Source: Paenibacillus sp. FSL H7-0737 (GTDB lineage: Bacteria > Bacillota > Bacilli > Paenibacillales > Paenibacillaceae). Taken from it: DNA of 64,000 nucleotides. This document shows positions 116-61,482 of this stretch, one piece after another (position 1 is the stretch's first letter; every line of letters begins with the position of its first letter). Both the position numbers and the translations under genes were made by a program. The notes beneath the pieces were generated by a model. The model was not told the DNA's origin and searched no databases. It saw only the letters and a program-made list of their open reading frames with translations. The stretch spans positions 1,922,001 through 1,986,000 of the forward strand of contig NZ_CP009279.1 in the NCBI RefSeq assembly GCF_000758545.1. The letters run 5' to 3'.

Positions 116-1402
116 ATGCAACAATGGTTCACTGATGCAAAGCTAGGAATTTTCATTCACTATGGAATTTATGCGGTACAAGGAGTTGCAGAATCATGGT
201 CTTTCTATAACGGGAGAATGTCTTATGAGGACTATATGAAGCAATTGAATGGTTTTACGGCCTCTAAATTTGATGCGAAGTATTGGGCAGATCTGATTGC
301 GAAGTCAGGAGCTAAGTATTCTGTTCTTACAACGAAACATCATGACGGAGTTGCATTATTTGATACGAAATTCAGTGATTTGAGCGTTATGAAGGCGACA
401 CCTGCCAAGAGAGATATTATTAAGGAGTGGTCTGAGGCGATTCGAGATCAGGGTCTTCGCGTAGGGATGTATTACTCCCTCATTGACTGGTCTCATCCTG
501 ATTATCCTTCAGTCTATGAGAATGGTGTCGTACCAGATGACTTGAGACAGATAAATCGTTATTCAAGTCCGATGGATGGTGTCCAAGATCCAGAGCGATG
601 GGAAAGATTTCTGGCATTTAACCGTAATCAATTAGGAGAAGTGTTAACGGATTATGGTCAGGTTGATCTGTTATGGTTCGATGGAGATTGGGAACGAAGC
701 GCAGAGCAGTGGGGATTACCAGCATTCAAAGATTATTTAAAATCATTTAATCCTGATCTTATTATAAACTCACGTTTGCAAGGGTATGGGGATTATAAGA
801 CTCCTGAGCAAGGTCTTCCCATTACGCGTCCGGAAGGTCCGTGGGAATTCTGTACGACGATAAATACGTCATGGGGTTATGTGCATACAGACCACAATTA
901 TAAATCATTGAATCAAATGATCCGAATGTTCTGTGACTGTATCAGCATGGGCGGTAATATGCTGTTAGATATTGGGCCCATAGAGGATGGAACGATTGAT
1001 CCTAGGCAGGAAGCGATCTTGCTCGGATTAGGTGATTGGATACGTACACATGAAGAAGCCATCTATGGAACACAAGAGGGTATTATGACACGCTACTATC
1101 TGGGTGGCAGTACATTGTCTCCCGATAAGAAGAACTTGTATCTCTTCGTTTACGATACGCCGAAGGAGAACATTTGCCTCAAAGGGCTGTGTAATCCCAT
1201 TACCAAGATTACGGTGCTTCACTCAGGCAAGGAGCTCAACCATGAAATTCACGGTGGTGTGCCCTGGTTCCACATACCAGGTACAACTTGGATTCAGATA
1301 ACACCTGAAGATATGCATGAACAAGTGACAGTACTTAAATTGGAATTCGATGAAGAAATTGAGATGTACGGCGGCTCAGGTGCAGTTGTAACGCACAACT
1401 AA
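116..1402 (+). CDS. GH29 alpha-L-fucosidase, intracellular
   Basis: The 428-residue protein has the GH29 pattern: FTDAKLGIFIHYG near the N terminus, the TTKHHDG motif around residue 75, and WFDGDW at about 187-192, where D189 matches the catalytic nucleophile of the family. A downstream EGPWEF...NTSWGY stretch is the usual second active-site segment. The enzyme would release alpha-L-fucose from a glycan. There is no signal peptide, so it should work in the cytoplasm on imported oligosaccharides. GGGAGGAAG precedes the ATG. The length is near that of short GH29 enzymes without a long C-terminal sandwich. The next gene starts 29 bases downstream. Linkage specificity (core alpha-1,6 versus alpha-1,2/3/4) cannot be read from the sequence. 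Confidence 0.9.
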   Translation: MQQWFTDAKLGIFIHYGIYAVQGVAESWSFYNGRMSYEDYMKQLNGFTASKFDAKYWADLIAKSGAKYSVLTTKHHDGVALFDTKFSDLSVMKATPAKRDIIKEWSEAIRDQGLRVGMYYSLIDWSHPDYPSVYENGVVPDDLRQINRYSSPMDGVQDPERWERFLAFNRNQLGEVLTDYGQVDLLWFDGDWERSAEQWGLPAFKDYLKSFNPDLIINSRLQGYGDYKTPEQGLPITRPEGPWEFCTTINTSWGYVHTDHNYKSLNQMIRMFCDCISMGGNMLLDIGPIEDGTIDPRQEAILLGLGDWIRTHEEAIYGTQEGIMTRYYLGGSTLSPDKKNLYLFVYDTPKENICLKGLCNPITKITVLHSGKELNHEIHGGVPWFHIPGTTWIQITPEDMHEQVTVLKLEFDEEIEMYGGSGAVVTHN

Positions 1403-1431: not shown

Positions 1432-2460
1432 ATGGTAAATCGAAGTGGAGTAGCAGAGCCACACATTGTTTCATACGCCCCCAAGCATTATCTGTGCAGA
1501 CGAGCGACGGAGTCGCTTGTCTTGGATGGGAAGCTAGATAAGCCCTTTTGGCAGCATGCAGCATGGACAGAAAAGTTTGTTGATATTGAAGGGGATTTGC
1601 GTCCGATGCCAGGAAAGGATACGAGGGTAAAAATGCTATGGGATGATGAGTATTTTTACTTTGGTGCAGAGCTGATGGAAGATCAGATCTGGGGAACGCT
1701 GACAGAACGTGATTCCGTTATTTTTTACGATAATGATTTTGAGATTTTTATAGATCCAACAGGAGATTCCCATCAATATTACGAGTTTGAGATTAACGCC
1801 TTGAACACGGTATGGGACTTACTCCTTGTGAAACCTTATCGTGACGGAGGTCCTCCAATTAACGGTTGGGATATCCAAGGCTTGAAGACGGCTGTTCATA
1901 TCGAAGGTGAGTTAAATAACCCGCACGCTGACAATCGGAAATGGACGGTTGAAATTGCAATACCTTGGAATAGTTTAAAAGAATGTGCTACGGATCAACG
2001 ATTACCTTATGCTGGGGAGTTTTGGCGTGTTAATTTTTCACGTGTTGAATGGCGGACCGAGGTTGTCGATGGCAAGTATCGTAAGCTTCTCAACCCCGAC
2101 ACAGGGAAACCTTATCCTGAGGATAATTGGGTGTGGTCACCACAAGGAGTCATTAATATGCATTATCCAGAACTGTGGGGCTATGTTGTATTCGTGAATG
2201 AAGCGGGTCCATATCACTTCGACATCCCTCGCGATGAACATATCAAATGGGAATTACGGAAGCTCTATTATCGTGAGCGGAACTATTACGAAACACATGG
2301 CATGTTCACAGCCGATTTTAATGCATTGTGTGAAGAAGATACATGGACCATAGAACCAAACATTGAAACGACGACTAAAGCTTTTATTATATCTGCATCA
2401 ACATCAGATGAGACGTCCCGTCTTTACATTCGCGAGGACGGGTTTCTCTGGAAGGAGTAA
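1432..2460 (+). CDS. Carbohydrate-binding family 9-like protein
   Basis: The 342-residue protein resembles stand-alone CBM9-like proteins. LDGKLDKPFWQHAAWTEKFVDIEGD at the start, then LWDDEYFYFGAEL, DNDFEIFIDPTGDSHQYYEFEINALNTVWDL and W-rich strands, are the typical CBM9 beta-sandwich signature. About residues 20-250 form the CBM9-like unit; the remaining 90 residues are not recognised. There is no signal peptide and no catalytic domain, so it would be a cytoplasmic sugar-binding protein, unusual for a CBM. It lies between the fucosidase and the transglutaminase-fold gene, only 6 bases before the latter, so it is almost certainly co-expressed. A chaperone-like or delivery role for a bulky glycan or glycopeptide is inference. 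Confidence 0.75.
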   Translation: MVNRSGVAEPHIVSYAPKHYLCRRATESLVLDGKLDKPFWQHAAWTEKFVDIEGDLRPMPGKDTRVKMLWDDEYFYFGAELMEDQIWGTLTERDSVIFYDNDFEIFIDPTGDSHQYYEFEINALNTVWDLLLVKPYRDGGPPINGWDIQGLKTAVHIEGELNNPHADNRKWTVEIAIPWNSLKECATDQRLPYAGEFWRVNFSRVEWRTEVVDGKYRKLLNPDTGKPYPEDNWVWSPQGVINMHYPELWGYVVFVNEAGPYHFDIPRDEHIKWELRKLYYRERNYYETHGMFTADFNALCEEDTWTIEPNIETTTKAFIISASTSDETSRLYIREDGFLWKE

Positions 2461-2466
2461 TCAGAT

Positions 2467-5034
2467 ATGGAACAGATTGAACGTAAGTTTCAGGAGAAAA
2501 AGAGTTTGGCCAAGGCACGTGCAACGCAGTTATTTCAAATCTTTGAACAGGACTTGACAGAAGAAGAAATAATTGCACTTAAGTATCTCTATGCGTATAT
2601 GCCAGTGAATGATTTGGCGGATTACAATGGTGAGCTTTTCTTGAATCATGTGAGAACGACACTAAAGATTCGCCGAAATATGCCATGGCAAGTCCCGGAT
2701 CATATATTTTTACATTTCGTACTGCCCTACCGTGTTAATACTGAAAATATTGAAGAACACCGCCAAATTCTTCATGAACAATTAGCAGAGCGAACTAGCA
2801 AGTTGTCCATGACGGAAGCCATTCTGGAGACAAATTACTGGTGTCATGAGGTGGCAACGTATATTGGGAGTGATTTGCGGACGATTTCACCATTATCGAT
2901 GATTCGAAATGCACGTGGTCGTTGCGGTGAAGAATCCACACTAGCTGTGGCAGCCCTTCGCAGTATAGGTATACCTGCACGTCAAGTGTATACGCCACGT
3001 TGGGCGCATTGTGATGATAACCACGCATGGGTGGAGGCATGGGCAGACGGTGAATGGTATTTTATTGGGGCTTGTGAGCCGGAAGCCCGTCCTAATCAAG
3101 GATGGTTTGGACCTCCAGCGCGTAGAGCAATGTTAATTAACACGCGTATTCTCGCTAATTATCAAGGTCCAGAAGATATTACGCTTGCAGATGAGTGGTT
3201 CACTGAAATTAATGTGTTGGAAAATTACGCATCCACGCGGACAATTACGATTCATGTGAAAGATGAATTCGGACAGTCTGTGCAGGATGCAGAAGTACAG
3301 TTCCAAGTGTATAACATGGCGGAATTTTTCCCGATTGCCATCCTTCCTACCAATGCTCAAGGAGAAGCAACTTTCAAAACAGGTCTCGGTGACCTCATGA
3401 TTCGTGCGGCAAAGGGTGGTACTTGGGGGGAAGTGAAAATTTCAGTGGCGGACAGTGAATGCGTTGAGCTTGTACTGAATCAAGAAAATCAGCCTGCTGC
3501 AGGAACGATGGCCGATTATGATATGGTTCCACCTCCAGCGTGTGAAGGTGAGGTAATAGAGGAACTGTCTGAAATTCGTATCCAGCGACATAATGAACGT
3601 TTGGAGGAAGGGATCTCAATCCGTTCGAAATATGAAGCGACATTTGTGACAGAAGAAGCAGCGAGGAAGCTCGGGGAAACACTGGGTCTCCCGGAAGATC
3701 GTGTATGGACAGTGCTTCAGAAGGCACGTGGTAACAGTGTAGAGATAGCCGCATTTCTGGAGGCAGCCACATCCGCGTATGGAGAATGGGCTTTACGGTT
3801 ATTGGAATGTATTAATGAAAAGGATTTAATTGACACATTTATTCCTACCCTTACAGATCATGTAGCTGGTGCGCTTGCTGTACGTGGTGAGCTCACAGAG
3901 GAAGTGTTCGTGCCCTACATTTTGCGTCCTCGTGTTCACTACGAGATGATTACACCGTATCGTACATTTTTCCAACAAGCTTTCACTTCGGATGAAGTGG
4001 CATTGTTCCGCAAGGACCCAACGAAGCTGGTTCAATTCATAGAAGAAACGTGGGATATATGGACAGACCTTCCGAATCTGAAAGGGAAGGGAACGGCAGT
4101 GGGTACCTTTGAATTGCGCGTAGGCGATCGCAGTTCCCTGGATATCATGTTCGTATCCATTTGTCGTAGTTTAGGAATCCCAGCGCGAATTCATCCCATT
4201 GAATCCAAGCCGCAATTTATAGTGGATAATATTTTCGTGGATGCTCAATTTACCAAAGGCGTTGTTGGAGGCGGGATAGAATTAGCGAACGGCACGCTCA
4301 TACTTCATCGTGATCAGGGTGTAGGGACAGTCCAACCAACGGCTTCATACTATGAGAATTTCACATTAGCTCGGCTGGAGAACGGTTTTTATAAAACCTT
4401 ATGTTATCCGAATGGCGCAAATGACCTATATGATACACCACTTGAGGTTGAGCAGGGAGCATACCGTCTGACGACAGGCGTAAGATTAAAAGATGGCACC
4501 GTGCTTATAAAGTTCACTTATTTCCATATTGCAGAAGGGGAAGAGACGAAGTTGGTCATGAAATATCGTCAATCTACATTGGAAATTCCAGTGTACGGCA
4601 AGGTGGAACGACTCAAGCAGCTGACCTCATGGGCAGGAGTAGAACAGACTTTCGCAGATCTTATTGGTGGAAAGGGCGCCTATGTCGCTTGGCTGGAGCC
4701 GGAACGAGAGCCTTCAAAGCATTTACTTCGTGAACTCGCTGAGTTGAAGCATGAGTTCAATGCGCTAGGTGCTCCCATCATTCTTATTATTGGTGACAAG
4801 CAATGTGCAGCTTCGTTTCATCCCGAGGACTATCCAGATCTTCCTGCAAATGCAGTGTTTGTACGTGATTCAACGAATAATCTATTGCCCGAATTATTTG
4901 CATCGTCCCAAGCGAGTGAAGCGGGCTTCCCGCATCTTATCATTGTGGACCGTGAAGATCAGATTCGTTACATGTCATCAGGATATAAGATTGCAGCGAG
5001 CAAGGAAGCGATTCAAATCTTAAGAAGGTTGTGA
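2467..5034 (+). CDS. Multidomain transglutaminase-fold protein, candidate deglycosylating or peptide-acting enzyme
   Basis: The 855-residue protein has a transglutaminase-like core at about 115-225. The Cys motif NARGRCGEESTL contains C153, and DDNHAWVEAW contains H186. Where the third catalytic Asp would fall (four residues after W197) there is Gly, followed by ACEPE. An Ig-like beta domain follows at about 257-340. A second, degenerate core appears at about 500-600, where the Cys motif reads GDRSSLDIM. A thioredoxin-like alpha/beta domain lies at about 735-855. No signal peptide is seen. Eukaryotic cytosolic peptide:N-glycanases share this fold with a related GRCGEW motif and a DPCE segment, and the operon is devoted to N-glycan sugars, so a glycan-peptide hydrolase is an attractive but unproven role. 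A protease or non-catalytic binding protein is equally possible. The start follows GGAAGGAG. Confidence 0.75.
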   Translation: MEQIERKFQEKKSLAKARATQLFQIFEQDLTEEEIIALKYLYAYMPVNDLADYNGELFLNHVRTTLKIRRNMPWQVPDHIFLHFVLPYRVNTENIEEHRQILHEQLAERTSKLSMTEAILETNYWCHEVATYIGSDLRTISPLSMIRNARGRCGEESTLAVAALRSIGIPARQVYTPRWAHCDDNHAWVEAWADGEWYFIGACEPEARPNQGWFGPPARRAMLINTRILANYQGPEDITLADEWFTEINVLENYASTRTITIHVKDEFGQSVQDAEVQFQVYNMAEFFPIAILPTNAQGEATFKTGLGDLMIRAAKGGTWGEVKISVADSECVELVLNQENQPAAGTMADYDMVPPPACEGEVIEELSEIRIQRHNERLEEGISIRSKYEATFVTEEAARKLGETLGLPEDRVWTVLQKARGNSVEIAAFLEAATSAYGEWALRLLECINEKDLIDTFIPTLTDHVAGALAVRGELTEEVFVPYILRPRVHYEMITPYRTFFQQAFTSDEVALFRKDPTKLVQFIEETWDIWTDLPNLKGKGTAVGTFELRVGDRSSLDIMFVSICRSLGIPARIHPIESKPQFIVDNIFVDAQFTKGVVGGGIELANGTLILHRDQGVGTVQPTASYYENFTLARLENGFYKTLCYPNGANDLYDTPLEVEQGAYRLTTGVRLKDGTVLIKFTYFHIAEGEETKLVMKYRQSTLEIPVYGKVERLKQLTSWAGVEQTFADLIGGKGAYVAWLEPEREPSKHLLRELAELKHEFNALGAPIILIIGDKQCAASFHPEDYPDLPANAVFVRDSTNNLLPELFASSQASEAGFPHLIIVDREDQIRYMSSGYKIAASKEAIQILRRL

Positions 5035-5038
5035 AAGG

Positions 5039-6082
5039 ATGGATCAACAGATGATTGTAGCAGGCTACGTGAGTGATTCCAAACTATCTGAGTTATCGGG
5101 TGACCACTTGATGAAGTTAACGCATCTCAACGTTGCATTTGGTTATGTGAAAGAAGATCAGATTACAACAGCACATTTGAAATGCACGAACCAGCTACAA
5201 GAGATGAAAGCGATGTATCCGAATCTGACACTGCTACTCTCCGTAGGCGGATGGGGGAATGGGGGCTTCTCTGAGGCTGCCTCTACCGAAGAAGGACGTC
5301 AGAAATTTGCAGCGTCGGCTGTGCAAGTGGTAACAGATTTCCCGTTCGATGGAATCGATTTGGATTGGGAATATCCTTGTTACAGTGAAGCGGATATTAA
5401 ATCGTCGCCGGATGATAAATGCAATTTCACACTGCTATTAAAGGCGATTCGAGATGCACTGGATGTGAAAGGTACAGCGGATAGCAGGCATTACCTGCTT
5501 ACAATTGCGGCAGGTGCTGATCAGTATTACATTGATGGCACCGAGATGGATCAAGTACAGCAATATTTGGATTTTATACAGCTGATGACCTACGATATGC
5601 GTGGCGGTTTCCAGATTCTAACGGGACATCATACGAATTTATTTCATACGACAGGAGATTTGTATCGTATCAGTACAGAGGCATCGGTGAATATGTTCAT
5701 TCAGGCAGGCGTTCCCCGAGAGAAAATCGTCATTGGCGTGGCGTTCTATTCCCGAATGTGGAAGCAGGTGCCGAATAAGACCCATGGATTTCTACAAATG
5801 GCGGGCACAACGGGTGGCTATGGTCCAGAATATACAGAGCTGTTTGCTAATTACATCAATCAGAATGGCTACACACGGCATTGGGACGATGAGGCCAAAG
5901 CACCATATTTATTTAATGGAGACACGTTTATTTCCTATGATGACGTAGATTCGATCGCACATAAATGTGAGTATGTCAAACGTGAAAAACTTGCGGGTGC
6001 CATGTTCTGGGAATATAGCTGTGATAGGACACACACGTTGCTTGATGCACTGTATGCAGGCTTATATGAGAGCGTGAAGTGA
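5039..6082 (+). CDS. GH18 glycosidase (chitinase or endo-beta-N-acetylglucosaminidase type)
   Basis: The 347-residue single-domain protein carries the GH18 signature DGIDLDWEYP at residues 104-113, with E111 as the catalytic acid, and LLLSVGGWG at about 66-73. A late WEYSCD strand closes the barrel. The complete DxxDxDxE motif predicts an active enzyme that cleaves beta-1,4 bonds after N-acetylglucosamine with substrate assistance. DWEYP is more chitinase-like than the DxE motifs of typical endo-N-acetylglucosaminidases, but in this operon the likely substrate is the chitobiose core of N-glycans (inference). There is no signal peptide. The start lies 5 bases after the previous stop, with AGAAGG upstream, so the two genes are translationally linked. 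Confidence 0.85.
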   Translation: MDQQMIVAGYVSDSKLSELSGDHLMKLTHLNVAFGYVKEDQITTAHLKCTNQLQEMKAMYPNLTLLLSVGGWGNGGFSEAASTEEGRQKFAASAVQVVTDFPFDGIDLDWEYPCYSEADIKSSPDDKCNFTLLLKAIRDALDVKGTADSRHYLLTIAAGADQYYIDGTEMDQVQQYLDFIQLMTYDMRGGFQILTGHHTNLFHTTGDLYRISTEASVNMFIQAGVPREKIVIGVAFYSRMWKQVPNKTHGFLQMAGTTGGYGPEYTELFANYINQNGYTRHWDDEAKAPYLFNGDTFISYDDVDSIAHKCEYVKREKLAGAMFWEYSCDRTHTLLDALYAGLYESVK

Positions 6083-6173: not shown

Positions 6174-6256
6174 TTAAAGTAGGGGTGCAAGTAGGGTTAG
6201 ACATACTGAAAACGTAGTTGCAGATCACAATTGTATACATGGAAGGAGTTTATGAA

Positions 6257-7249
6257 ATGAGCAAAATTATTGGTGAAGCACTATCAAATATTCCTTGGCA
6301 GGATAAGCCGAGTGGCTATAACGCTCCAGTGTGGCGATATACCCATAATCCGATTATTCAGCGAGATGCACAGTTAAACTCGAACAGTATTTTTAATTCC
6401 GCGGTTATTCCTTTTGAAGAGGGATATGCAGGGGTATTCCGTTGTGACTCCAGATCTGTAAGTATGGACATATTCGCTGGCTTCAGTCAGGACGGGCTTC
6501 AATGGGAGATTAATGAGAATCCGATCCAATTTGAAGGCGACGAATATGTAACAAAGCGGGAGTATCGTTACGATCCACGCGTCTGCAAAATCGAGGATAA
6601 ATATTATGTTTCTTGGTGTAATGGATACCATGGTCCTACAATTGGTCTCGCATATACGTATGATTTCAAAACCTTTCACCAATTAGAAAACGCTTTCCTG
6701 CCATACAACCGGAATGGTGTATTATTCCCGCGCAAAATAAATGGCAAATATGCGATGTTAAGCCGTCCAAGTGATACGGGGCATACACCATTTGGAGATA
6801 TCTTTTTTAGTGAGAGCCCTGACCTGACGTATTGGGGAAAGCATCGTTACGTGATGGGTACGATCAATTCGGACGCTTCTGCATGGCAATCGAAGAAAAT
6901 TGGTCCAGGGCCGATTCCAATTGAAACAGATCGCGGATGGTTGTTGATCTATCATGGCGTAATAAATACGTGTAACGGGTTCGTATATCGGATGGGTGTT
7001 GCTTTATTAGATTTGAATGAGCCATGGAAGGTGTTAGCACGTTCACGAAATTATATTCTCGGACCAGAGACATTGTATGAGTGTGTAGGAGATGTGCCAA
7101 ATGTCACCTTCCCTTGCGCAGCACTTTCGGATGGCGATACAGGCCGAATTGCAATTTACTATGGCTGTGCTGATACCGTAACAGGCGTTGCCTTCACAAC
7201 TGTGGATGAGTTGTTCGACTATATGGATAAGTATCCGCTCGAGAATTAG
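6257..7249 (+). CDS. GH130 beta-mannoside phosphorylase
   Basis: The protein begins [15 protein letters not shown] and is 330 residues long. An upstream in-frame ATG at 6218 is rejected because GGAAGGAG at 6241-6248 sits just before the ATG at 6257. The family features are REYRYDPRV, with D106 matching the catalytic Asp, IGLAYTYDF, and [22 protein letters not shown]. Known GH130 members of this kind use phosphate to split beta-1,4-mannosyl bonds. Those acting on mannosyl-GlcNAc or mannosyl-chitobiose release mannose-1-phosphate from the N-glycan core. The neighbouring GH38, GH125 and GH18 genes support that substrate. It lacks a signal peptide, as phosphorolysis requires cytoplasmic phosphate. 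Confidence 0.88.
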
Positions 7250-7302: not shown

Positions 7303-9747
7303 ATGTCCAGCAAACGACCTTGGAAAATATACGCAATCCATCATTCTCATACAGATATCGGATATACAGAGCGTCAAGAGAAAATTCAGCAGTATCATGT
7401 TAATTTCATTCGCCAGGTCTTGCATATTTTACGTGAAAGCAAATCGGGACGTCGTCCGGAATGGCAAGGCTTTAAGTGGGTCTGTGAGACATTTTGGCCG
7501 ATTGAAACCTTTCTGAAGCAGGCGACAGAGCAAGAGAAGATAGAGTTCGCTGAGGGCGTGAGACAGGGAGCTATCGGGTTGTCGGGGACTTATCTAAATA
7601 TGACAGAATTAATTGGTAAAGAGCTATTCCAATCGATGATTGCGCGGGTGTGTGATTACGGACAGTCCATTGAAATTCCTGTAACATCGGCAATGACAGC
7701 AGATATTAACGGTTTCAGCTGGGGGTATGGTCAGGTATTGCTGGATGCTGGGATCCAGAATCTGTCCACCTGTATTCATACGCATCATGGAATGTTTCCT
7801 TGCTGGAAGAAGCAGCAGCCGTTCTGGTGGGAGATGCCTTCAGGGGATCGCCTGTTGACGTGGAGCGGAGAGCATTATGTGTTCGGAAATGATCTGGGGC
7901 TTGTACCTGGCATGGGTGGAAAATATACGATTAAAGATGAATTCGATATGAGTAAGGGCGCGGATTTTGAAATAGCTGAACAACGGATCGGGCGTTATAT
8001 CGATCGTCTGACAGAGGATGGCTATGCATTTGATTTCTTTCCGGCGATGTTCTCAGGCTTGCCTACGGATAATAACCCGCCAAATGCGGCGGCAATAGAG
8101 TTTATCCAACAATGGAACACCAAGCATGGGGACCGGATTTTAATTCAAATGGCAACGCTAGATGACTTCTTTGCAGAAGTCCGTGCCCATGCAGCACAGC
8201 ATCCGGAAGATATTCCTGTTTATCGAGGAGATTGGCCAGATTGGTGGACGGATGGGGTTGGCTCGACACCAAAGCATGTACAAGTATTCCGTGAGGCGCA
8301 GCGGGTGTACCAGAAGGTAAGAAGACTAGATCCTAATTATGACATCATTTCCCCGGAAGCTATTAAGGACATGGAATATCAATTAACGATGTTCGCTGAG
8401 CACACATGGGGCTATCATTCTTCCATTTCGGAGCCTTGGAACCCGTTTGTTCAGGAGTTGGGCTTGCGTAAGGAGGCATTTGCAGCAAATGCGAGCACCG
8501 CTGCACATCGCGCATTGTACGAAATCCTTGAAGCCAAGGGAGATGCACTGCTTGCACCGGGTCGGCCGATGAAGTTCAAAATTTGCAATCCTTACAGCTA
8601 TGTTCAGGAGGATCATGCTCATCTTATTCTTGAGGGTTGGTATTACGAGCAGATTAAAGAAGGGTTTGAGGTGCGTGATTTCAATACAGGTGAGGTGCTC
8701 CCATCTCAACTGCGTCTTGCGCATCGCGGGGTTATTGTAACCATTCCGGTCATGCTGGAGCCTCAGGAAGAAAAAGTGCTTCATATCGTAGCGGTTAAGC
8801 CAACAATTAAAACCGCATATATGAACGATTATGTGGCATCGGATCGTGTATTGGATTTGGATGTTACCCATGAAGTAAAGGACTTCCATGTGACATCCAC
8901 ATACGCTGAAACACCATTTGTACGTATTGAATGGAAGAAGGGTGAAGGAATCACCTCTTGGAAGGATAAGGAGACTGGACAGGAGCTGCTACGTGCAGAC
9001 CGGAATCATCATGCATTCACACCGGTATATGATGTTACGCCAGCCACAAAGGTGGTCGAAATGACGGAGGTTCGTCGTCTTATGGGCCGTAATCGGAAAG
9101 GTCCGAATGCGATTGTATCTACAGGTGTGTTGACAAGTGCAGAAATTGTTGGACAGGGAGAGCTTTATAGCATGATTCAATTGACCTATGAAGTCTCCGG
9201 TTGTGAGCATTATTCCTTATTCTTAACCGTGTATGCGGATCGTCCTCGTGTCGATGTGTCGGTACGGATGCATAAGGAAAGTGTATGGAAGCCTGAGAAT
9301 TTGTATATTTCACTTCCGTTTGGCGGCGCATTGACAACCTCTACGCAGGAGCTGTGGGTAGATAAGATGGATGCACTAACTCGTCTGCGCAAGGATCAAT
9401 TACCAGGCAGCTTGGCCGATTATACGGCTGTTGGCGAAGGTGCTGCATACATTTCAAAGGAACAAGGTATTGTGATTGCGATGCCAGACACTCCGTTGAT
9501 TCAAGTGGGTGCTTTAGAGCATAAATATCGTCTACTTAATGGCGATGCAAGACTAGAACAGGACCCTGCGCACTTGTACGCCTGGGTGATGAATAACTAT
9601 TGGGAAACCAACTTTGCAGCTACGCTTGGCGGCTTCTATGAATTCCGCTATTACATTACATGGGGTGAGAAGTTTAACAACCCTGAAGTATCGTTCGACA
9701 TGTGTCGGGGGATGAATGCAGGAATCCTGGCGTGGAGACAATTCTAG
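7303..9747 (+). CDS. GH38-type alpha-mannosidase (divergent, HxHTD motif)
   Basis: The 814-residue protein opens with HHSHTDIGYT (H14, H16, D18), the place of the zinc-binding HxHxD motif of GH38. The usual Trp after the second His is replaced by Thr. D134 in MTADINGFSW is the expected nucleophile position. AEHTWGYHSS at about 366-375 resembles the conserved late active-site segment. The C-terminal half is a long beta-sandwich region, as in GH38. The protein probably cleaves alpha-linked mannose, but its divergence leaves room for another alpha-glycoside; it may belong to the uncharacterised GH38-like families. There is no signal peptide. GGGAGAGATTGAG precedes the ATG, and the GH3 gene follows after 28 bases. 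Confidence 0.75.
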   Translation: MSSKRPWKIYAIHHSHTDIGYTERQEKIQQYHVNFIRQVLHILRESKSGRRPEWQGFKWVCETFWPIETFLKQATEQEKIEFAEGVRQGAIGLSGTYLNMTELIGKELFQSMIARVCDYGQSIEIPVTSAMTADINGFSWGYGQVLLDAGIQNLSTCIHTHHGMFPCWKKQQPFWWEMPSGDRLLTWSGEHYVFGNDLGLVPGMGGKYTIKDEFDMSKGADFEIAEQRIGRYIDRLTEDGYAFDFFPAMFSGLPTDNNPPNAAAIEFIQQWNTKHGDRILIQMATLDDFFAEVRAHAAQHPEDIPVYRGDWPDWWTDGVGSTPKHVQVFREAQRVYQKVRRLDPNYDIISPEAIKDMEYQLTMFAEHTWGYHSSISEPWNPFVQELGLRKEAFAANASTAAHRALYEILEAKGDALLAPGRPMKFKICNPYSYVQEDHAHLILEGWYYEQIKEGFEVRDFNTGEVLPSQLRLAHRGVIVTIPVMLEPQEEKVLHIVAVKPTIKTAYMNDYVASDRVLDLDVTHEVKDFHVTSTYAETPFVRIEWKKGEGITSWKDKETGQELLRADRNHHAFTPVYDVTPATKVVEMTEVRRLMGRNRKGPNAIVSTGVLTSAEIVGQGELYSMIQLTYEVSGCEHYSLFLTVYADRPRVDVSVRMHKESVWKPENLYISLPFGGALTTSTQELWVDKMDALTRLRKDQLPGSLADYTAVGEGAAYISKEQGIVIAMPDTPLIQVGALEHKYRLLNGDARLEQDPAHLYAWVMNNYWETNFAATLGGFYEFRYYITWGEKFNNPEVSFDMCRGMNAGILAWRQF

Positions 9748-9775: not shown

Positions 9776-12085
9776 ATGAGATATAAAGATTCATCTTTGC
9801 CGATTCATGAGCGTGCTATAGATTTATTGGCTCAAATGACGCTGGAGGAGAAGATCGGGCAGCTCCTCCAGCCCTTCGGCTGGAAGGCGTATGAGAAATC
9901 AGAAGGCAAGATTCAATTGACAGAAGTATTTAAGGAAGCAATTGCAAGCGGTGGCGTGGGCTCTTTGTATGGTGTGCTGCGTGCAGATCCTTGGACAGAG
10001 GTATCATTGGAAACTGGGTTGTCACCTTTGGAAGGCGCAGAAGTAACGAATCTGATCCAGCAATATGCGATTGAGCATACACGTCTGGGTATTCCGATTC
10101 TGCTGGGCGAGGAATGCTCTCATGGTCATATGGCGATTGGCAACACCGTCTTTCCCGTACCGCTTGCTATCGGAAGCACATGGAATAGGGAATTATTCCG
10201 GCAGATCTGTCAAGCAGTGGCTGCAGAGACTCGCGCTCAAGGAGGGGCAGCAACCTACTCCCCAGTACTAGATATTGTACGTGATCCGCGCTGGGGGCGA
10301 ACAGAAGAATGCTTTGGGGAAGATCCATATTTAAATAGTGAAATGGCAGTAGCTGCGGTAATGGGCTTACAAGGTGATTCATTAAATACAGACCATACGA
10401 TCCTGGCAACATTAAAGCATTTCGTCGCGTATGGCAGCTCGGATGGTGGTCGTAATGCGGACACCGTACGGATGGGAAAACGCGAGTTAATGGAGAAGGA
10501 TTTGCTGCCATTCCAGAAGGCAATTGAAGCTGGGGCTAAATCTGTTATGACCGCTTACAATGAAATTGACGGTGTTCCGTGTACTTCGAGTAAGGAGTTA
10601 TTAACAGAGGTACTTCGTGAGCAATGGGGCTTTGATGGCTTCGTCATTACGGATTGTGGTGCGATCAGCCAGCTTAAACACGGTCACCAGATTTGTGAGA
10701 CCGAAGAAGAGGCGGCGACTCTTGCACTTAAAGCTGGTGTGGATATGGAGATGTCTGGTGAAACATTTGGCAGATATCTAATAAACGCATTACAGCTGCA
10801 GTTGATTGACATTTCCGATATTGATCTCGCAGTCGAACGAATTCTGCGTGCGAAGTTTGAATTGGGATTGTTTGAACGTCCCTTTGTTGATCCGACTACA
10901 GCACAGCGTGTCGTTGGACAACAGTTGCATTTAGAGATGGCGCGACAAGCTGCACGTGAAGGCATCATTCTTTTGAAGAATCATGATGAGGCTCTGCCGC
11001 TTTCTCCGTCACTTGGTAAGATTGCCGTTATTGGGCCGAATGCCAACAATATTTATAATCAATTGGGTGACTATACTTCACCACAGGAGCGTCATCACAT
11101 CATTACCGTTTTGGACGGGATTCGCGCTAAATGTGCAGGACTCAGCGAAGTGCTGTATGCTCCGGGCTGCCGCGTGAAAGATCCATCGAAAGCAGGCTTT
11201 GAGAAGGCAATGGAGGTGGCGTCAGCAGCGGATACCATTATTGCAGTTGTCGGGGGATCAAGTGCACGTGATTTCGGTGAAGGTACGATTGATTTGAAGA
11301 CAGGGGCTGCCGTCATTACGGATCAATTTAGTCTTAGTGATATGGAATGTGGAGAAGGCTTCGATCGTGCAGAGCTGAACTTATGCGGTGTGCAACTTGA
11401 TCTGCTGCAGGAGCTGCACAGATTGAACAAAAAACTGATTGTTGTCTATATCAATGGTCGTCCCATTGTCGAGCCTTGGGTAGATGAGCATGCGGATGCC
11501 ATTCTGGAGGCTTGGTACCCGGGACAGCAGGGCGGGCATGCGATTGCTGATATTTTGTTCGGAGACTATAATCCATCCGGCCGGCTTACACTATCCATTC
11601 CAAAGCATCCAGGGCAATTACCGATTTATTACAATAAGAAACGCTCCAGAGGTCATCGCTATCTCGAGGTGGACTTTCATCCGCAATATGTGTTTGGTTA
11701 TGGCCTAAGCTATACAAGCTATCAATACGAGCATATTCGCTTGGATCAGATACAAATAGAGTTGGATGATTCTTGTACTGTATCCGTGGAGGTCAAGAAT
11801 ATTGGCGATGTAGCTGGACATGAGGTTGTTCAGCTATATATAAAAGATTGCACTAGCACAATCACACGCCCGGAACAAGAATTAAAAGGATTTCAGAAGA
11901 TTTATATTGAGCCTGGTGAGATGCGTACCGTTCAATTTCATATTACTCCGCGGGAGCTGCAGTTTGTCGGTTCTGATTTGCAGTGGACGGTTGAGCCCGG
12001 CAAATTTGAGATCATGATTGGATCGAACGTAGGCAATACCATTTCAACAAGCTTAGAGGTTGTTCAACGTAACTTGAGATCGTAA
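9776..12085 (+). CDS. GH3 beta-glycosidase with C-terminal Fn3-like domain
   Basis: The 769-residue protein has the three-part layout of long GH3 enzymes. A barrel with KHFVAYG at about 214-220 and nucleophile D293 in FVITDCGA comes first. An alpha/beta sandwich from about 380 carries the acid/base, and a fibronectin type III-like domain lies at about 660-769 (EVVQLYIKD, PGEMRTV). The NagZ-type KHFPGHG motif is missing, so a beta-glucosidase or beta-xylosidase-type enzyme is more likely than a short beta-N-acetylglucosaminidase. Its exact substrate in the pathway is open. No signal peptide is seen. The spacing to GH125 is 21 bases, with GGGAGGG before that gene. Confidence 0.88.
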   Translation: MRYKDSSLPIHERAIDLLAQMTLEEKIGQLLQPFGWKAYEKSEGKIQLTEVFKEAIASGGVGSLYGVLRADPWTEVSLETGLSPLEGAEVTNLIQQYAIEHTRLGIPILLGEECSHGHMAIGNTVFPVPLAIGSTWNRELFRQICQAVAAETRAQGGAATYSPVLDIVRDPRWGRTEECFGEDPYLNSEMAVAAVMGLQGDSLNTDHTILATLKHFVAYGSSDGGRNADTVRMGKRELMEKDLLPFQKAIEAGAKSVMTAYNEIDGVPCTSSKELLTEVLREQWGFDGFVITDCGAISQLKHGHQICETEEEAATLALKAGVDMEMSGETFGRYLINALQLQLIDISDIDLAVERILRAKFELGLFERPFVDPTTAQRVVGQQLHLEMARQAAREGIILLKNHDEALPLSPSLGKIAVIGPNANNIYNQLGDYTSPQERHHIITVLDGIRAKCAGLSEVLYAPGCRVKDPSKAGFEKAMEVASAADTIIAVVGGSSARDFGEGTIDLKTGAAVITDQFSLSDMECGEGFDRAELNLCGVQLDLLQELHRLNKKLIVVYINGRPIVEPWVDEHADAILEAWYPGQQGGHAIADILFGDYNPSGRLTLSIPKHPGQLPIYYNKKRSRGHRYLEVDFHPQYVFGYGLSYTSYQYEHIRLDQIQIELDDSCTVSVEVKNIGDVAGHEVVQLYIKDCTSTITRPEQELKGFQKIYIEPGEMRTVQFHITPRELQFVGSDLQWTVEPGKFEIMIGSNVGNTISTSLEVVQRNLRS

Positions 12086-12106: not shown

Positions 12107-13429
12107 ATGAAAGAGCATCGTTTACCTACTATTGAAATTAATAAGTTCCCTCTGCCTCAGGCGGTTCAGCAAGTTATGAAGGACGCTAGTGAACGTCTGG
12201 CTCATCGTCCGAAGCTGCGTCAATTATTCCAGAATTGTTTTCCAAATACATTAGAAACAACTACTAAGCTGTTGGATGACGGAACAACATTTGTGTTAAC
12301 TGGCGATATTCCGGCGATGTGGCTGCGTGACTCTGTTGAGCAGGTTATTCATTATGTTCCTTTTGCCAAGGAAGATGCTGAACTTGGGCGGATTCTAGAA
12401 GGCTTAATACGCCGTCATATGTTTTATATTCAAATCGATCCTTATGCGAATGCCTTTAACGAGTCTGCAAATGATTGGCATTGGAATGCAACGGATGAGA
12501 CAGACAGCTCGCCTTGGGTATGGGAGCGTAAATTTGAGCTGGATTCCATGTGCTTCTCATTCCGCTTGGCATATCTATATTGGAAAGAAACCGGACGCAC
12601 CGGGATCTTTGATGAAGTTTTCCGAACTTCACTACTGAAGATGTTGAACGTATGGCAGATTGAGCAGGAGCACAAGGAGCAGTCAACCTACCGCTTTCAA
12701 CGTCACAACGGCATCATGATAGATACATTACGTAAGAACGGTTTGGGGATGCCGGTAAATAATGTTGGACTGATCTGGTCAGGCTTCCGCCCCAGCGACG
12801 ATGCGTGTGACTTTCACTTCAATATTCCATCGAATATGTTCGCCGCTGTAACGCTTCACCAATTGCAGGAAATTGCTCAATATGTATATAGAGATTCAAA
12901 TCTCGTAGCCCGAATGTCGGCAATGGAAGAAGAAATCCGGCATGCAATTGAGCTTTATGGAATCATTGACCATTCCAAATACGGCAAGATGTATGCGTTC
13001 GAAACGGATGGTTTCGGTAACCATTTATTGATGGACGATGCAGGTACTCCGAGCTTAATGTCAGCACCCTATCTAGGTTACTGTGCGCCAGACGATCCAA
13101 TATATTTGAATACCCGCAAATTTGCTCTGAGTGAGGATAATCCCTATTTCTTCAAAGGCGAGAAGCTCAGCGGCATTGGCAGTCCGCATACTAGCATGGG
13201 ATTCGTATGGCATCTTGCTTATACGATGCAGGGCTTAACCGCAGTTGATCCTCAAGAGATGCTCGAGATGATTGAAATCTGTGAGTCGACAGATGCTGGT
13301 ACTGGATTTATGCATGAGGGATTTAATGTCAATGATTCAACCCAATTTACACGTGAGTGGTTCGCTTGGTCGAATAGCCAGTTTGCGCAGCTTGTGTGGA
13401 AGGCATTGGAATCAGGCATATTGCCCTAA
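12107..13429 (+). CDS. GH125 exo-alpha-1,6-mannosidase
   Basis: The 440-residue protein matches GH125 over its whole length, including the signature TGDIPAMWLRDS at residues 65-76, ANDWHWNATDET, KFELDSMCF and EWFAWSNSQFAQLV near the end. Characterised members from Streptococcus and Clostridium remove non-reducing alpha-1,6-linked mannose from N-glycan cores, and pneumococcal GH125 sits in a locus with GH38, GH29 and ROK genes much as here. It is the most specific marker that this operon handles N-glycans. It has no signal peptide. GGGAGGG stands 10-16 bases before the ATG. Confidence 0.92.
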   Translation: MKEHRLPTIEINKFPLPQAVQQVMKDASERLAHRPKLRQLFQNCFPNTLETTTKLLDDGTTFVLTGDIPAMWLRDSVEQVIHYVPFAKEDAELGRILEGLIRRHMFYIQIDPYANAFNESANDWHWNATDETDSSPWVWERKFELDSMCFSFRLAYLYWKETGRTGIFDEVFRTSLLKMLNVWQIEQEHKEQSTYRFQRHNGIMIDTLRKNGLGMPVNNVGLIWSGFRPSDDACDFHFNIPSNMFAAVTLHQLQEIAQYVYRDSNLVARMSAMEEEIRHAIELYGIIDHSKYGKMYAFETDGFGNHLLMDDAGTPSLMSAPYLGYCAPDDPIYLNTRKFALSEDNPYFFKGEKLSGIGSPHTSMGFVWHLAYTMQGLTAVDPQEMLEMIEICESTDAGTGFMHEGFNVNDSTQFTREWFAWSNSQFAQLVWKALESGILP

Positions 13430-13482
13430 AATATATCACTATGAGCGGGATAGAGCTCACTAACTGTATAGGAGTGACAACT

Positions 13483-15297
13483 ATGTTCGAGAAAAGACCT
13501 ATTAACCCTATTCGGTACACTCAACAAATGAAGCCAGATACAGTTACGCCAAATGCAAAAGCCGGAGTCCAGCGAGGTTTTGAAGCAATACTGTCCCCGC
13601 TACAACAAGCTGCAATGAATTCCACTAGTATTATTAATGTAGCTATTGACGGAACGCATGGTGCCCAATATCAGCACGTCCTGGCAAGGATCATAGATGT
13701 ATTGGAGCAAGAAGGGCATAAGACGGTTCTCATCGGTACCAATAGTTTTGTGAAGACAAGCGAAGAACTTCGTACGTTCTTTGAAGCGAATATTACAGAT
13801 AATCGTGCATTTGGTTATTTTTCGGATGCTACGATTGCAGATTATTTCGTCCTAGAAGCACAAGACAAGATAGACAACTACAAAAAAAAGATTCAATTAC
13901 CTGCCCACCAAACAACCTTCATCATCACGTTTGGACCAGGGGCCTATTGGCTCGGGAACGGCAACTACGATATAACCTACTTCTTGGATGTATCTCGTGA
14001 GTATCAGCAATTGGAACATAAAGCACATTTATTGAATTTCGGCTTTAGCTGGAACCGAGATGTGGTGGAGAAGTATAAAATCTGTCTATTTGTGGAATGG
14101 CCAGTACTGGAAACTTACCGAAAAGAAGTATTGGATTCGATCCACTATTACGTGGATATGAATGAGCCCGAGTGTCCCAAGCTAACGACGGTCTTCACCC
14201 TACGCCAGATGATTGCAGATATCGCCAAGTCCCCTATGCGTGTGAAGCCGTTCTTCGCGCCAGGGATATGGGGCGGTCAATATTTGAAGAAATTCGCGGA
14301 GCTTCCGAAGGAGTGGGCCAACTGCGCATGGAGCTTTGAACCGATTGCACCGGAGAACTCCATTTTGCTGAAATACAACGACGAAATAATCGAGGTCCCC
14401 TTCCTCATAGTCATGCATTATGAGCATCCGGCCATTCTTGGGAATCGTATTGTCGGGCTGTTTGGTGATTATTTTCCGATTCGCTTCGACTACCTTGATA
14501 CCATCGACGGAGATAGCTTGTCGTGCCAGGTACATCCGAAGCAGGAGTATATTCGTGAGACATTTAATGAATTTATGGCACAGCAAGAATCGTACTATAT
14601 CATGGAGAATTTAGAGAATACATCTGTGTTCTTGGGACTGACTGAACAATGTACGAAGGAGGAATTCTTTAACGCGGTACACCATGCACAAGAAACTGGT
14701 GAACCCATTCAAATCACTGACTTCGTTAATCAATATGAAGCGAATAAGGGGGATTTATTCCTAATTCCTACAGGGACTGTTCATGCCTCTGGAAAGAACA
14801 ACTTAGTACTCGAAATATCCTCTACGACATGGTGGTTTACGTTCAAAATCTACGATTTCCTTCGTAAAGGAATGGATGGCAAGCCACGTCCTATTAATAT
14901 TGATCATGCCTTTGACAATATTGATTTCGATAAAAGAACGGCATGGGTAGAGGACAATTTGATTCCTAAGCCAAGCTTGCTGCAAAAGCAGGGGATTAAC
15001 GAGGAGTATGTTCTTGGACAGCGTGAAGATCTACTGTTTTATGTTCATCGTGTGCACTTACATGATACATGGGTGGACCATACAAATAACGAAATGGTAA
15101 TGTATAACTTGGTTGAGGGAGAAAAGGTTCGTATAGTATCCTGTGCAGATGAATCTATATATGTGGAGTTACAATACGCGGAATCATATATCCTTCCAGC
15201 CGTGTTCAGTGCCTATAAAATTATAAATATCGGAAACAAGCCATGTAAGCTTGTGAAAGCAGGCGTATCCAAGGCATGGGATGTGAGTCTCCTTTGA
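13483..15297 (+). CDS. manA: Class I mannose-6-phosphate isomerase fused to a degenerate kinase-like domain
   Basis: The chosen ATG at 13483 follows GGAG and gives 604 residues; an earlier in-frame ATG at 13396 lies inside the GH125 gene. Residues about 250-604 are a type I phosphomannose isomerase: KPFFAPGIWGG, the metal motif CQVHPKQEY (Q349, H351) and IPTGTVHASG. It interconverts mannose-6-phosphate and fructose-6-phosphate. Residues about 45-245 look like a uridine-kinase-type alpha/beta domain, with a hydrophobic strand and DGTHGAQYQ where a P-loop would be. The Lys and Ser/Thr of GxxxxGK[ST] are absent, so nucleotide phosphorylation is unlikely and a regulatory role is inferred. Class I enzymes of Firmicutes are usually about 310-320 residues, so the fusion is distinctive. 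Confidence 0.87.
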   Translation: MFEKRPINPIRYTQQMKPDTVTPNAKAGVQRGFEAILSPLQQAAMNSTSIINVAIDGTHGAQYQHVLARIIDVLEQEGHKTVLIGTNSFVKTSEELRTFFEANITDNRAFGYFSDATIADYFVLEAQDKIDNYKKKIQLPAHQTTFIITFGPGAYWLGNGNYDITYFLDVSREYQQLEHKAHLLNFGFSWNRDVVEKYKICLFVEWPVLETYRKEVLDSIHYYVDMNEPECPKLTTVFTLRQMIADIAKSPMRVKPFFAPGIWGGQYLKKFAELPKEWANCAWSFEPIAPENSILLKYNDEIIEVPFLIVMHYEHPAILGNRIVGLFGDYFPIRFDYLDTIDGDSLSCQVHPKQEYIRETFNEFMAQQESYYIMENLENTSVFLGLTEQCTKEEFFNAVHHAQETGEPIQITDFVNQYEANKGDLFLIPTGTVHASGKNNLVLEISSTTWWFTFKIYDFLRKGMDGKPRPINIDHAFDNIDFDKRTAWVEDNLIPKPSLLQKQGINEEYVLGQREDLLFYVHRVHLHDTWVDHTNNEMVMYNLVEGEKVRIVSCADESIYVELQYAESYILPAVFSAYKIINIGNKPCKLVKAGVSKAWDVSLL

Positions 15298-16235
15298 AGC
15301 CTAAAGTCGTGATCGCTTTAGACGTGGGAGGAACCTTTATTAAATCTGGTTTAGTCGTGGATGGAGAATTGCAACAGGCTAGCTGCAAGCAGCATCCTGC
15401 ACTTGCTGATCAAGATGCCGAAGTGATTATAGAGCAATTTATTTCTATATTCGAAGATCAATATCAGTTTTATACCGTTACACTAGGGAAATCGGCAAAC
15501 TGTACTTGGAATATCGGTCTCGCCTTTCCTGGGCCCTTTGATTATCAGCAAGGTATCTGTTATATTCAGGGGCTTAGTAAATATGAAGCATTGTATGGTA
15601 AGAATGTACGAGAAGTATTATATACCCGGTTTAATACCTTACAACATAAGGAATGGGCGAAGCACCTGCTGCAGGCAGATATTCGCTTTGAGAATGATGC
15701 GAAGCTGTTTGCCTTAGGCGTAAGCAGGTTATTTCCAAATGAACGATATATTTCGTTAACTTTAGGGACAGGGTTAGGCTCCGCATTTATTGATCGTGCA
15801 TCGATTCTGAACGAAGGACCAGGTGTTCCCGAGGACGGTTGGCTTTTTGATAAACCTTTCCTGGAGAGCACCATAGATAACGCCTTCTCACGTCGCGGAA
15901 TTCTTCGCCTGGCTGAGCAGATGGGAGCTCTAGAAAAAGGAATGGACGTGAAGGAACTCGCAGAACAAGCAAGAAACGGGAATAGCTTGTGCTGCAAGGT
16001 GTTTGAAGAATTCGGTGCACGATTGGCTAGGATGCTAAAGTCCTATGTTATAGACTATCAGCCAAACCGCATCGTTATTGGCGGACAGATTGCCAAGAGC
16101 ATCGATTTATTTAGCCCCGCCCTCCAGAAGGGATTGGCTGATTCATCTATTGGTATATTTACTTCAGAAAATGTGTTCGAACACACGCTTATCGGAATAT
16201 CGAGATTATTTGACGATTCCTTAGGATTCAATTGA
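15294..16235 (+). CDS. ROK-family sugar kinase
   Basis: The protein carries the ATP-binding motif ALDVGGTFIKSG at its start, the catalytic Asp in RFENDAKLFALG, and SLTLGTGLGSAFI. The CxCGxxGC zinc motif of many ROK kinases is absent. The start is uncertain. TTG at 15294 overlaps the manA stop by four bases and places the first ROK strand right at the N terminus; an ATG at 15276 would add six residues. Neither has a strong ribosome binding site, suggesting translational coupling. As the last gene of the operon, directly after manA, it most likely phosphorylates mannose (or GlcNAc) set free by the glycosidases. Substrate preference is inference. Confidence 0.85.
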   Translation: MKPKVVIALDVGGTFIKSGLVVDGELQQASCKQHPALADQDAEVIIEQFISIFEDQYQFYTVTLGKSANCTWNIGLAFPGPFDYQQGICYIQGLSKYEALYGKNVREVLYTRFNTLQHKEWAKHLLQADIRFENDAKLFALGVSRLFPNERYISLTLGTGLGSAFIDRASILNEGPGVPEDGWLFDKPFLESTIDNAFSRRGILRLAEQMGALEKGMDVKELAEQARNGNSLCCKVFEEFGARLARMLKSYVIDYQPNRIVIGGQIAKSIDLFSPALQKGLADSSIGIFTSENVFEHTLIGISRLFDDSLGFN

Positions 16236-53038: not shown

Positions 53039-54724
53039 TTATTCACTGATCTCTTCCACGGTCAATATATAACTGTTCGACTGGCTCTCGCCAGTGTATT
53101 CACGTCCATCCAGATTGAAGAAGTATGGAGCGGTTACTAAGCCTTTAAGAAAACGACCCAGTACATGTTCACTAACCCTGACAAAATAATGGATGTTTAC
53201 AGTGGCAGCAGCTTTGACTGTCCCTAGCGACAAGATACCGTTAAATGAAGATTGTGGATTTGGAATCCCATCAATCACAATGCTGCTAGGATCAATAAGA
53301 CATTCCTCCGGTGTGAGCCGATCAAGGGATACTTCTGCTGGCCAATTCCCACTATTCGTTAGGGAGATCCAGCATTGGACATGTTCTCCTTCTTCTACAA
53401 GGGTAGGCTTTGCATGAGTTTCGAGAGAAATGATAGGCAGGACTATTAAGGTAGTAACGATATTGGAACGAGAGGTTTGTCTTACTGTCCGTCCGTCCGG
53501 GAGCACAAAAGTATACTGAACACTGCCATGATTTTGGACAGCTGCGTGGGCATGAATGTTTATGGCTGCAGGAATGCTCACTTGAAAGACCACGACCGCT
53601 GAAGTTCCGCCTCTTAATGTGCCTAGCTGAATGCCATCAGCAGGACGGGCGCCTTTTTGCATCACTCCGTTTAAGAGAACACTATCCCATACGAAAAGAG
53701 TGCCCGAAGGGATAGCATCGGTCAGAACCGCATTTACGGCCAAGTTCCCGCTGTTGGTTACCGTTAGTTCATATCTTAGGTTGTCACCCGGAGCTGCTGT
53801 AACATGATCTACTCTCTTGCTGATGGTGACGCCTGCCAAAACAAGTGAGACAACGACGGTGTTACTCTCGGTTGTATTGGGATCGTCGTCGACGGTATAA
53901 GTGACAGCAGCACGGTTAGTCAGGTCCAAGGATGAGGGGATCTCTGTAACTCGAACGCGAAAGGTAATATCAATGCTTAGGTCTTTATCAAGTTGACCAA
54001 TTAATATTCCTTGCGTAGGCTCTGATTCTGGATAATAGACGCCACCTGCAATGACACTCCCTGGAATGAACACAGATCCGTTAGGAATAGAAATCGTTGC
54101 GATGATTTGGTTTAATAGGCTGTTACCTTCGTTCGTAAGCCGTAATGTATAGGTAATTACATCACCTATAAAAGAGGTCGGAGTGCTTGCAGACAACAAG
54201 GTAGAGAGCTGGTAGGAGCGTAAAGAAACTAGTACGGAATTAGAATATAAATCTCCGTTAACGATTCTTCCCTCGGGTGTGGCAAAAGAAAAACGGCCCA
54301 GTGCTTTATTTTGCAGCACTAGTGAAGAGGGAAGTGAAATGATAACCACTTGAAAGGCGATGCTCACTTGACTCTGCGGAGCAATAGAACCTAGCGGTAT
54401 GCCCGAAGACGGTGTAGCCCCTGGGAGAGGCACACCGTCTCTAAGCACGCTGTTGGAAATAAAGGATACACCCTCTGGAAGAATGTCATACACCGTTAGC
54501 AAAGCATCTGTGTTTCCATTATTAGAAGCTTTAATGGTATACACCAGAGTGTCACCTAAAGAGGCATGGAGTTTGTCTGTACTCTTCAGCAATGAAAGCA
54601 CGGGGCCCACGACCGGGGTGTTAACGGTATTGGAATAGACAATGCCGTCAACACCCGCTGCCGAGTTGAAGAGTACCATAGATTGATTGGTTACGACAGG
54701 TTGGGTACGTGAGCCGGGAATCAT
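53039..54724 (-). CDS. DUF11 repeat protein, C-terminal part split from the large gene
   Basis: The 561-residue frame starts inside a DUF11 repeat (after the strand ending in VVAL of the neighbour). It continues with the second half of that repeat (VTNQSMVLF, SNTVNTPV) and four more DUF11 units, such as TDKLHASLGDTLVYTIKASNNGN and VDHVTAAPGDNLRYELTVTNSGN. No ribosome binding site stands before the ATG. The ATG overlaps the stop of the upstream gene by four bases (ATGA), and the frame is -1 relative to it. It is probably the C-terminal portion of one protein, separated by a frame change, or alternatively produced by termination-reinitiation. No membrane anchor or sortase motif is seen at the end. 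Confidence 0.75.
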   Translation of the reverse strand: MIPGSRTQPVVTNQSMVLFNSAAGVDGIVYSNTVNTPVVGPVLSLLKSTDKLHASLGDTLVYTIKASNNGNTDALLTVYDILPEGVSFISNSVLRDGVPLPGATPSSGIPLGSIAPQSQVSIAFQVVIISLPSSLVLQNKALGRFSFATPEGRIVNGDLYSNSVLVSLRSYQLSTLLSASTPTSFIGDVITYTLRLTNEGNSLLNQIIATISIPNGSVFIPGSVIAGGVYYPESEPTQGILIGQLDKDLSIDITFRVRVTEIPSSLDLTNRAAVTYTVDDDPNTTESNTVVVSLVLAGVTISKRVDHVTAAPGDNLRYELTVTNSGNLAVNAVLTDAIPSGTLFVWDSVLLNGVMQKGARPADGIQLGTLRGGTSAVVVFQVSIPAAINIHAHAAVQNHGSVQYTFVLPDGRTVRQTSRSNIVTTLIVLPIISLETHAKPTLVEEGEHVQCWISLTNSGNWPAEVSLDRLTPEECLIDPSSIVIDGIPNPQSSFNGILSLGTVKAAATVNIHYFVRVSEHVLGRFLKGLVTAPYFFNLDGREYTGESQSNSYILTVEEISE

Positions 54725-61449: not shown

Positions 61450-61482
61450 GATTCTCACCTCCTTCGAGGTCAATTTGCTTTT

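Follow-up and report, generated by a model that had tools for sequence, protein, structure and literature searches.

Can a transglutaminase-fold protein encoded among Paenibacillus glycan-degrading genes cleave the bond between an N-glycan and asparagine? The question is raised by a 64,000-nucleotide stretch of the Paenibacillus sp. FSL H7-0737 genome (here called the window), in which the gene of interest lies within a run of glycoside hydrolase genes (Table 1). We use TG as shorthand for its product and the homologues of that product, which a sequence-only reading had proposed to be a bacterial cytosolic peptide:N-glycanase (PNGase) of a new architecture. To our knowledge, no bacterial enzyme of the transglutaminase fold is known to cleave the N-glycan-asparagine bond; in eukaryotes, NGLY1 and then ENGase, or glycosylasparaginase and then chitobiase, serve this purpose. 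No bacterial transglutaminase-type PNGase was described in the literature searched, which had most subscription journals outside its coverage. In a 2023 review, the families assigned to N-glycan removal in bacteria are GH18, GH85, and PNGases; transglutaminases go unmentioned, and the prokaryotic enzymes are described as commonly extracellular (PMC10154615).

Table 1. Features of TG and its operon, with positions in the window
Feature	Position	Strand	Basis
GH29 alpha-L-fucosidase	116..1402	+	Pfam PF01120, E 3e-91
CBM9-like protein, conserved neighbor directly 5' of TG	1432..2460	+	Pfam PF06452; synteny
TG, transglutaminase-fold amidase candidate	2467..5034	+	ORF, ATG start, 855 aa, no signal peptide
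Catalytic transglutaminase-like core, residues 105-198	2779..3060	+	Pfam PF01841, E 2.2e-24; core fold search
GRCGE with nucleophile Cys153 (codon 2923-2925)	2917..2931	+	Invariant in 130 homologues, common to PNGases
Catalytic His186 in NHAWVE	3022..3024	+	Invariant in 130 homologues; aligns with Png1 His218
GACEPE, residues 201-206 (Gly201, Asp position; Glu204, PNGase CE glutamate)	3067..3084	+	Alignment
Ig-like domain, residues 258-339	3238..3483	+	3e8v, 0.8 Å over 82 residues, 35% identity
Second, degenerate transglutaminase-like core, ~residues 522-575	4033..4191	+	Pfam; conservation in homologues
Thioredoxin-like domain without CxxC, residues 708-855	4588..5031	+	Fold match; homologue survey
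GH18 lacking a signal peptide, orthologous to the N-acetylglucosaminidase PDB 6INX	5039..6082	+	
GH130, nearest UhgbMP (Man-b1,4-GlcNAc phosphorylase)	6218..7249	+	
GH38-like protein, divergent alpha-mannosidase	7303..9747	+	Pfam PF01074, E 4e-17
GH3	9776..12085	+	
GH125 alpha-mannosidase	12107..13429	+	Pfam PF06824, E 2e-155
Mannose-6-phosphate isomerase-like protein and ROK-family protein	13396..16235	+	

Domain organization of TG

The open reading frame proved real, and all four parts assigned to its product were recovered: an intact Cys-His core, an Ig-like domain, a degenerate second core, and a thioredoxin-like domain. The first core scores 86.2 bits against the Transglut_core profile (curated cut-off, 23 bits) and has invariant Cys153 and His186, which places it in that superfamily. 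The AlphaFold model of TG is mostly confident (mean pLDDT, 84.6), and a fold search with it showed a ResA-like thioredoxin fold for the C-terminal domain (Z 15.7), in which none of 130 homologues has a CxxC. These homologues come from Firmicutes, Bacteroidota, and one Acidobacteria metagenome-assembled genome, with identities down to ∼37%.

The Ig-like domain gives a weak Big_1 match in Pfam (residues 253 to 304) and closely resembles 3e8v (E 1e-21 by profile; structural Z 12.9), a structure solved from a proteolytic fragment of a “possible transglutaminase-family protein” from Bacteroides fragilis. Such Bacteroidota proteins belong to the TG family but differ in being exported, and they carry no function assignment. 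The second core is weakly matched by Pfam (E 1e-4 in TG and E 1e-7 in homologues), and no catalytic Cys/His pair was found in it across the 130 homologues. That this core is dead thus stands, but its description as a Cys-to-Ser change depends on the alignment: position 557 is Ser in 125/130 homologues, yet a gapless alignment puts Arg555, variable among homologues, at the Cys position. We rejected the idea of a new architecture because the same protein, mostly full-length, is common in Bacteroidales (98/295 genomes) and a fragment of one member was solved in 2008. TG belongs to a bacterial family that has no name of its own and that databases show as “transglutaminase-like.”

Active site and comparison with peptide:N-glycanases

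Cys153, His186, Gly201, Ala202, Cys203, Glu204, and Pro205 show no variation across the 130 homologues, and about 40 residues of the first core are invariant, including R138, P142, G151-R-C153-G-E155, R178, W179, H181, D183, N185, H186, W188, E190, G201-A-C-E-P205, W213, F214, and R220. Such invariance is far beyond chance and, as it takes in Cys153, His186, Gly201, and Glu204, makes the first core look like a working enzyme. The replacement of the triad Asp by Gly, as originally claimed, is exact against yeast Png1 (HVDSCE versus FIGACE in TG) and extends to all 130 homologues, whereas 17 other transglutaminase-fold proteins with an extractable active-site segment, from the same genomes, have Asp or Glu there. 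Catalysis thus looks intact but with a different third residue. Residue roles beyond the triad are assigned here by alignment; we infer that the place of the missing Asp is taken by an invariant acid, either Glu204 or one such as Asp183 or Glu190. Judged by eye, short (∼400-aa) Bacteroidales relatives have Glu at the Asp position.

The predicted likeness to PNGase motifs was partly borne out, in that R138-x3-P142-x8-GRCGE and the CE glutamate are common to TG and the yeast and mouse PNGases; among the 17 comparison proteins of the fold, none combines GRCGE with the CE glutamate. TG residues 151 to 157 read GRCGEES, so that E (or Q, in homologues) stands for the W of the PNGase GRCGEW. Like Png1/NGLY1 (1x3w, 3esw, and 2f4m), TG has a transglutaminase fold (Z 9.0 to 9.5) with Cys and His and, in Firmicutes, is cytosolic; unlike them, it carries additional Ig-like, second-core, and thioredoxin-like domains. 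The TG protein contains no CxxC that could bind zinc, and in the 130 homologues none was found in the 120 residues that precede the Cys. PNGase requires the triad Asp, Asp235 in Png1 numbering (PMC2791212, also followed for His218), to which Gly201 is equivalent. Membership in the Png1 family was therefore rejected, since both this Asp and the zinc CxxC...CxxC pair are absent.

We folded and searched the core separately, because the thioredoxin-like domain filled the fold matches of the full-length model. Yeast PNGase was among the matches (Z 9.5; 3.5 Å over 142 residues), but eukaryotic transglutaminases such as TG2 and factor XIII ranked higher (Z 11.9; 3.2 Å over 170 residues), although they gave no sequence match to TG at E ≤ 10. 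The Cytophaga hutchinsonii putative cysteine protease 3isr also matched (Z 9.8; 3.0 Å over 144 residues) and is the best PDB sequence match of the core (E 5e-5), but it lacks both GRCGE and the CE glutamate. The modeled fold places the core in the transglutaminase superfamily without selecting a function, and the comparison does not separate PNGase from eukaryotic transglutaminases. Because pLDDT falls below 50 near residues 132 to 151 and 178 to 185, close to the active site, we make no claim on side-chain geometry.

Two other kinds of enzyme share the bond proposed for TG. PNGase F-type enzymes (Elizabethkingia and Bacteroides), which also serve N-glycan use, have domains with no Pfam match in TG at E ≤ 1; PNGase F itself is built as a beta-sandwich (PMC9102325), and the described bacterial PNGases act outside the cytosol (PMC10154615 and PMC9522356). 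A search of Paenibacillus for PNGase F gave no match, which, lacking a positive control, does not establish absence. Glycosylasparaginase (Asparaginase_2, PF01112), an unrelated family, likewise had no match in TG at E ≤ 1.

Gene neighborhoods in Paenibacillus and other Firmicutes

The claim of an N-glycan operon is supported in the window, where the GH130 is nearest UhgbMP, a Man-b1,4-GlcNAc phosphorylase (PMC4599007), and is followed by the GH38 and GH125 genes. On its upstream side, this island also includes a second GH29 and the importer seen in other loci. The GH38-like product matches the N-terminal GH38 profile only and has no PDB sequence match.

When species genomes were scanned, 80 TG loci came out, nearly all from Paenibacillaceae, with a recurring order of two permeases, solute-binding lipoprotein, divergent sensor kinase, GH29, CBM9, TG, and GH18. 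After thinning to TG proteins less than 80% identical, 49 loci remained, with CBM9 in 40, GH18 in 36, a complete ABC importer in 35, and GH29 in 33; CBM9, TG, and GH18 occur together in 32, and GH125 lies within ∼10 kb of TG in 7. At the genome level, GH125 is present in 13/13 Paenibacillus with TG versus 10/17 without it (Fisher p 0.01, uncorrected for phylogeny and genome incompleteness). Glycosylasparaginase was found neither in the genome of the window nor in any of the 30 Paenibacillus genomes searched (PF01112). In a distant Firmicutes family, TG adjoins GH38 in two genomes; it is preceded by CBM9 in one and followed by a GntR regulator and an importer in the other. Given its place in an island for sugar import and N-glycan degradation, the Paenibacillus TG may cut the N-glycan-asparagine bond.

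In P. barengoltzii, the GH18 directly downstream of TG (L088:12654-13691) is identical in all 345 residues to PDB 6INX. This is probably PbNag39 of Liu et al. 2020, which PMC8471714 cites for chitin conversion. Since it belongs to a TG island, it may naturally act on the chitobiose of N-glycans and not on chitin.

The genome of the window also contains, at L208:4424-13999 (G000:C1 ∼4499424-4508999), an arrangement of GH29, ROK, cutC, M17 aminopeptidase, and Opp/Dpp-type ABC importer genes that looks like an operon for fucosylated glycopeptides and hints at a noncopper role for CutC. The same GH29-ROK-cutC-M17-importer arrangement was read from sequence starts in a second genome (G007, L209).

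Bacteroidales homologues and cutC

Within Bacteroidota, TG is concentrated in the Bacteroidales (the order of G061); an even sample of the phylum yielded it in 2/296 genomes. The Firmicutes proteins and those of Bacteroidota and Acidobacteria split with full support in a tree, and a simple test found hydrophobic export signals in 44/46 of the latter versus 1/84 of the former. The term “cytosolic” therefore holds for the Firmicutes branch but not for the exported Bacteroidota proteins.

Eight of 40 Bacteroidales neighborhoods (L149, L150, L152, L164, L171, L177, L178, and L179) contain GH92, GH125, GH130, GH20, or GH29, and 32 have no nearby glycan enzyme of these tested families. The expectation that homologues sit in glycan loci is thus met mainly in Paenibacillus, whereas those of Bacteroidales lie mainly outside them. 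A relative of the CBM9 gene in the window occurs in three of the eight loci, so the CBM9 link crosses phyla. Among 14 Asparaginase_2 genes of the same Bacteroidales genomes, cutC was never nearby and GH92 was nearby once, so that even this established family is mostly an orphan there.

The copper role of CutC is doubtful. The cutC gene is near TG, and mostly adjacent to it, in 17/40 Bacteroidales neighborhoods, and it is present in 37/38 genomes with TG versus 3/20 without (Fisher p 1e-10, uncorrected for phylogeny and genome incompleteness). In one TG-lacking Bacteroidales genome (G681, L211:7042-14001), cutC, GH2 beta-mannosidase, Asparaginase_2, and GH20 genes follow in that order, placing PF01112 near cutC as TG is elsewhere. 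Together with the cutC operon in the genome of the window, these arrangements suggest that TG, CutC, and glycosylasparaginase share one glycopeptide chemistry; nothing relevant to cutC with glycosylasparaginase appeared in the literature searched, from which most subscription journals were absent. Exported relatives of ∼400 aa, also of the transglutaminase fold and with Glu where the triad has Asp, are encoded directly beside cutC (L203:6972-9002 and L206:5818-7805).

Proposed function and alternatives

We propose, with a probability of about 45%, that TG is a hydrolytic transglutaminase-fold cysteine amidase for the GlcNAc-Asn linkage of imported N-glycopeptides or glycosyl-asparagines, similar in action to PNGase or glycosylasparaginase. 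We infer the substrate, reaction, and order of steps of the pathway. In Paenibacillus, trimmed glycopeptides or glycosyl-amino acids would enter the cytosol through the ABC importer. Fucose removal would fall to GH29, release of Asn or peptide via Cys153/His186 to TG, splitting of chitobiose to GH18, trimming of alpha-mannose to GH125 and GH38, and phosphorolysis of Man-b1,4-GlcNAc to GH130. In Bacteroidota, TG would do the same work in the periplasm.

Gene context favors GlcNAc-Asn chemistry, through the island synteny, GH125 co-occurrence, UhgbMP-like GH130, and PF01112 in 0/30 genomes of Paenibacillus; the TG-GH38 pairing in distant Firmicutes; the Bacteroidales loci with GH92, GH125, GH130, GH20, GH29, and CBM9; the co-occurrence with cutC in Bacteroidales; and cutC beside glycosylasparaginase, mannosidase, and GH20 in G681. 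The active-site invariance down to ∼37% identity and the PNGase-shared R-x3-P-x8-GRCGE and CE pattern, seen in 0/17 other transglutaminase-fold proteins, also argue for a GlcNAc-Asn amidase. Gly for the triad Asp in every member, the missing zinc CxxC pair, and, in the models, the higher rank of eukaryotic transglutaminases argue against it. Also against it are the 32 of 40 Bacteroidales loci without the tested glycan enzymes and the description of the neighboring GH18 as a chitin-oligomer N-acetylglucosaminidase, not an N-glycan enzyme.

It is rather unlikely that TG is instead a cysteine peptidase or isopeptidase that trims the peptide of imported glycopeptides, with the sugar-amide bond cut elsewhere or left. 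By sequence, the closest relative with a solved structure (3isr) is labeled a putative cysteine protease, an annotation frequent among bacterial transglutaminase-fold proteins, and the genome of the window has its fucosidase-cutC-aminopeptidase-peptide importer operon; but TG has PNGase-type GRCGE and CE motifs, its steady partners are sugar enzymes rather than peptidases, and Paenibacillus has no detected glycosylasparaginase (30 genomes). We consider it improbable that TG acts, as a transglutaminase or amidase, on another amide, for example the N-acyl group carried by GlcNAc or by a fucosylated Nod-factor-like lipochitooligosaccharide, with GH18 and GH29 as partners. These two are the sole glycosidases found in many islands, 6INX is a chitin-oligomer enzyme, and Paenibacillus includes soil and plant-associated species, but the associations with GH125, GH38, GH130, and GH92 span phyla and TG occurs in many Bacteroidales. 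Equally improbable is a noncatalytic or regulatory glycan-binding protein whose first core is also inactivated by the missing Asp: Gly in all members, the degenerate second core, and the thioredoxin domain without CxxC fit this, but Cys153, His186, and ∼40 surrounding residues are invariant, unlike in dead cores, and the second core, by contrast, varies at catalytic positions.

If the GlcNAc-Asn amidase assignment is true, it would explain how N-glycopeptide breakdown is completed in the cytosol of Paenibacillus, where no glycosylasparaginase was found, supply a bacterial counterpart to NGLY1, and give a role to a family present in one third of sampled Bacteroidales. It would also tie cutC to glycopeptide catabolism. 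More tentatively, a bacterial family of transglutaminase-fold GlcNAc-Asn/peptide amidases that have a Cys-His-(Gly) site and use another acid might replace glycosylasparaginase, in the cytosol of Paenibacillus and the periplasm of Bacteroidales, with CutC in the same GlcNAc-Asn pathway.

Elsewhere in the window, the minus strand encodes a 2,250-residue protein with many tandem DUF11/conserved-repeat-like domains (54721-61473), accompanied by a 561-residue protein (53039-54724).
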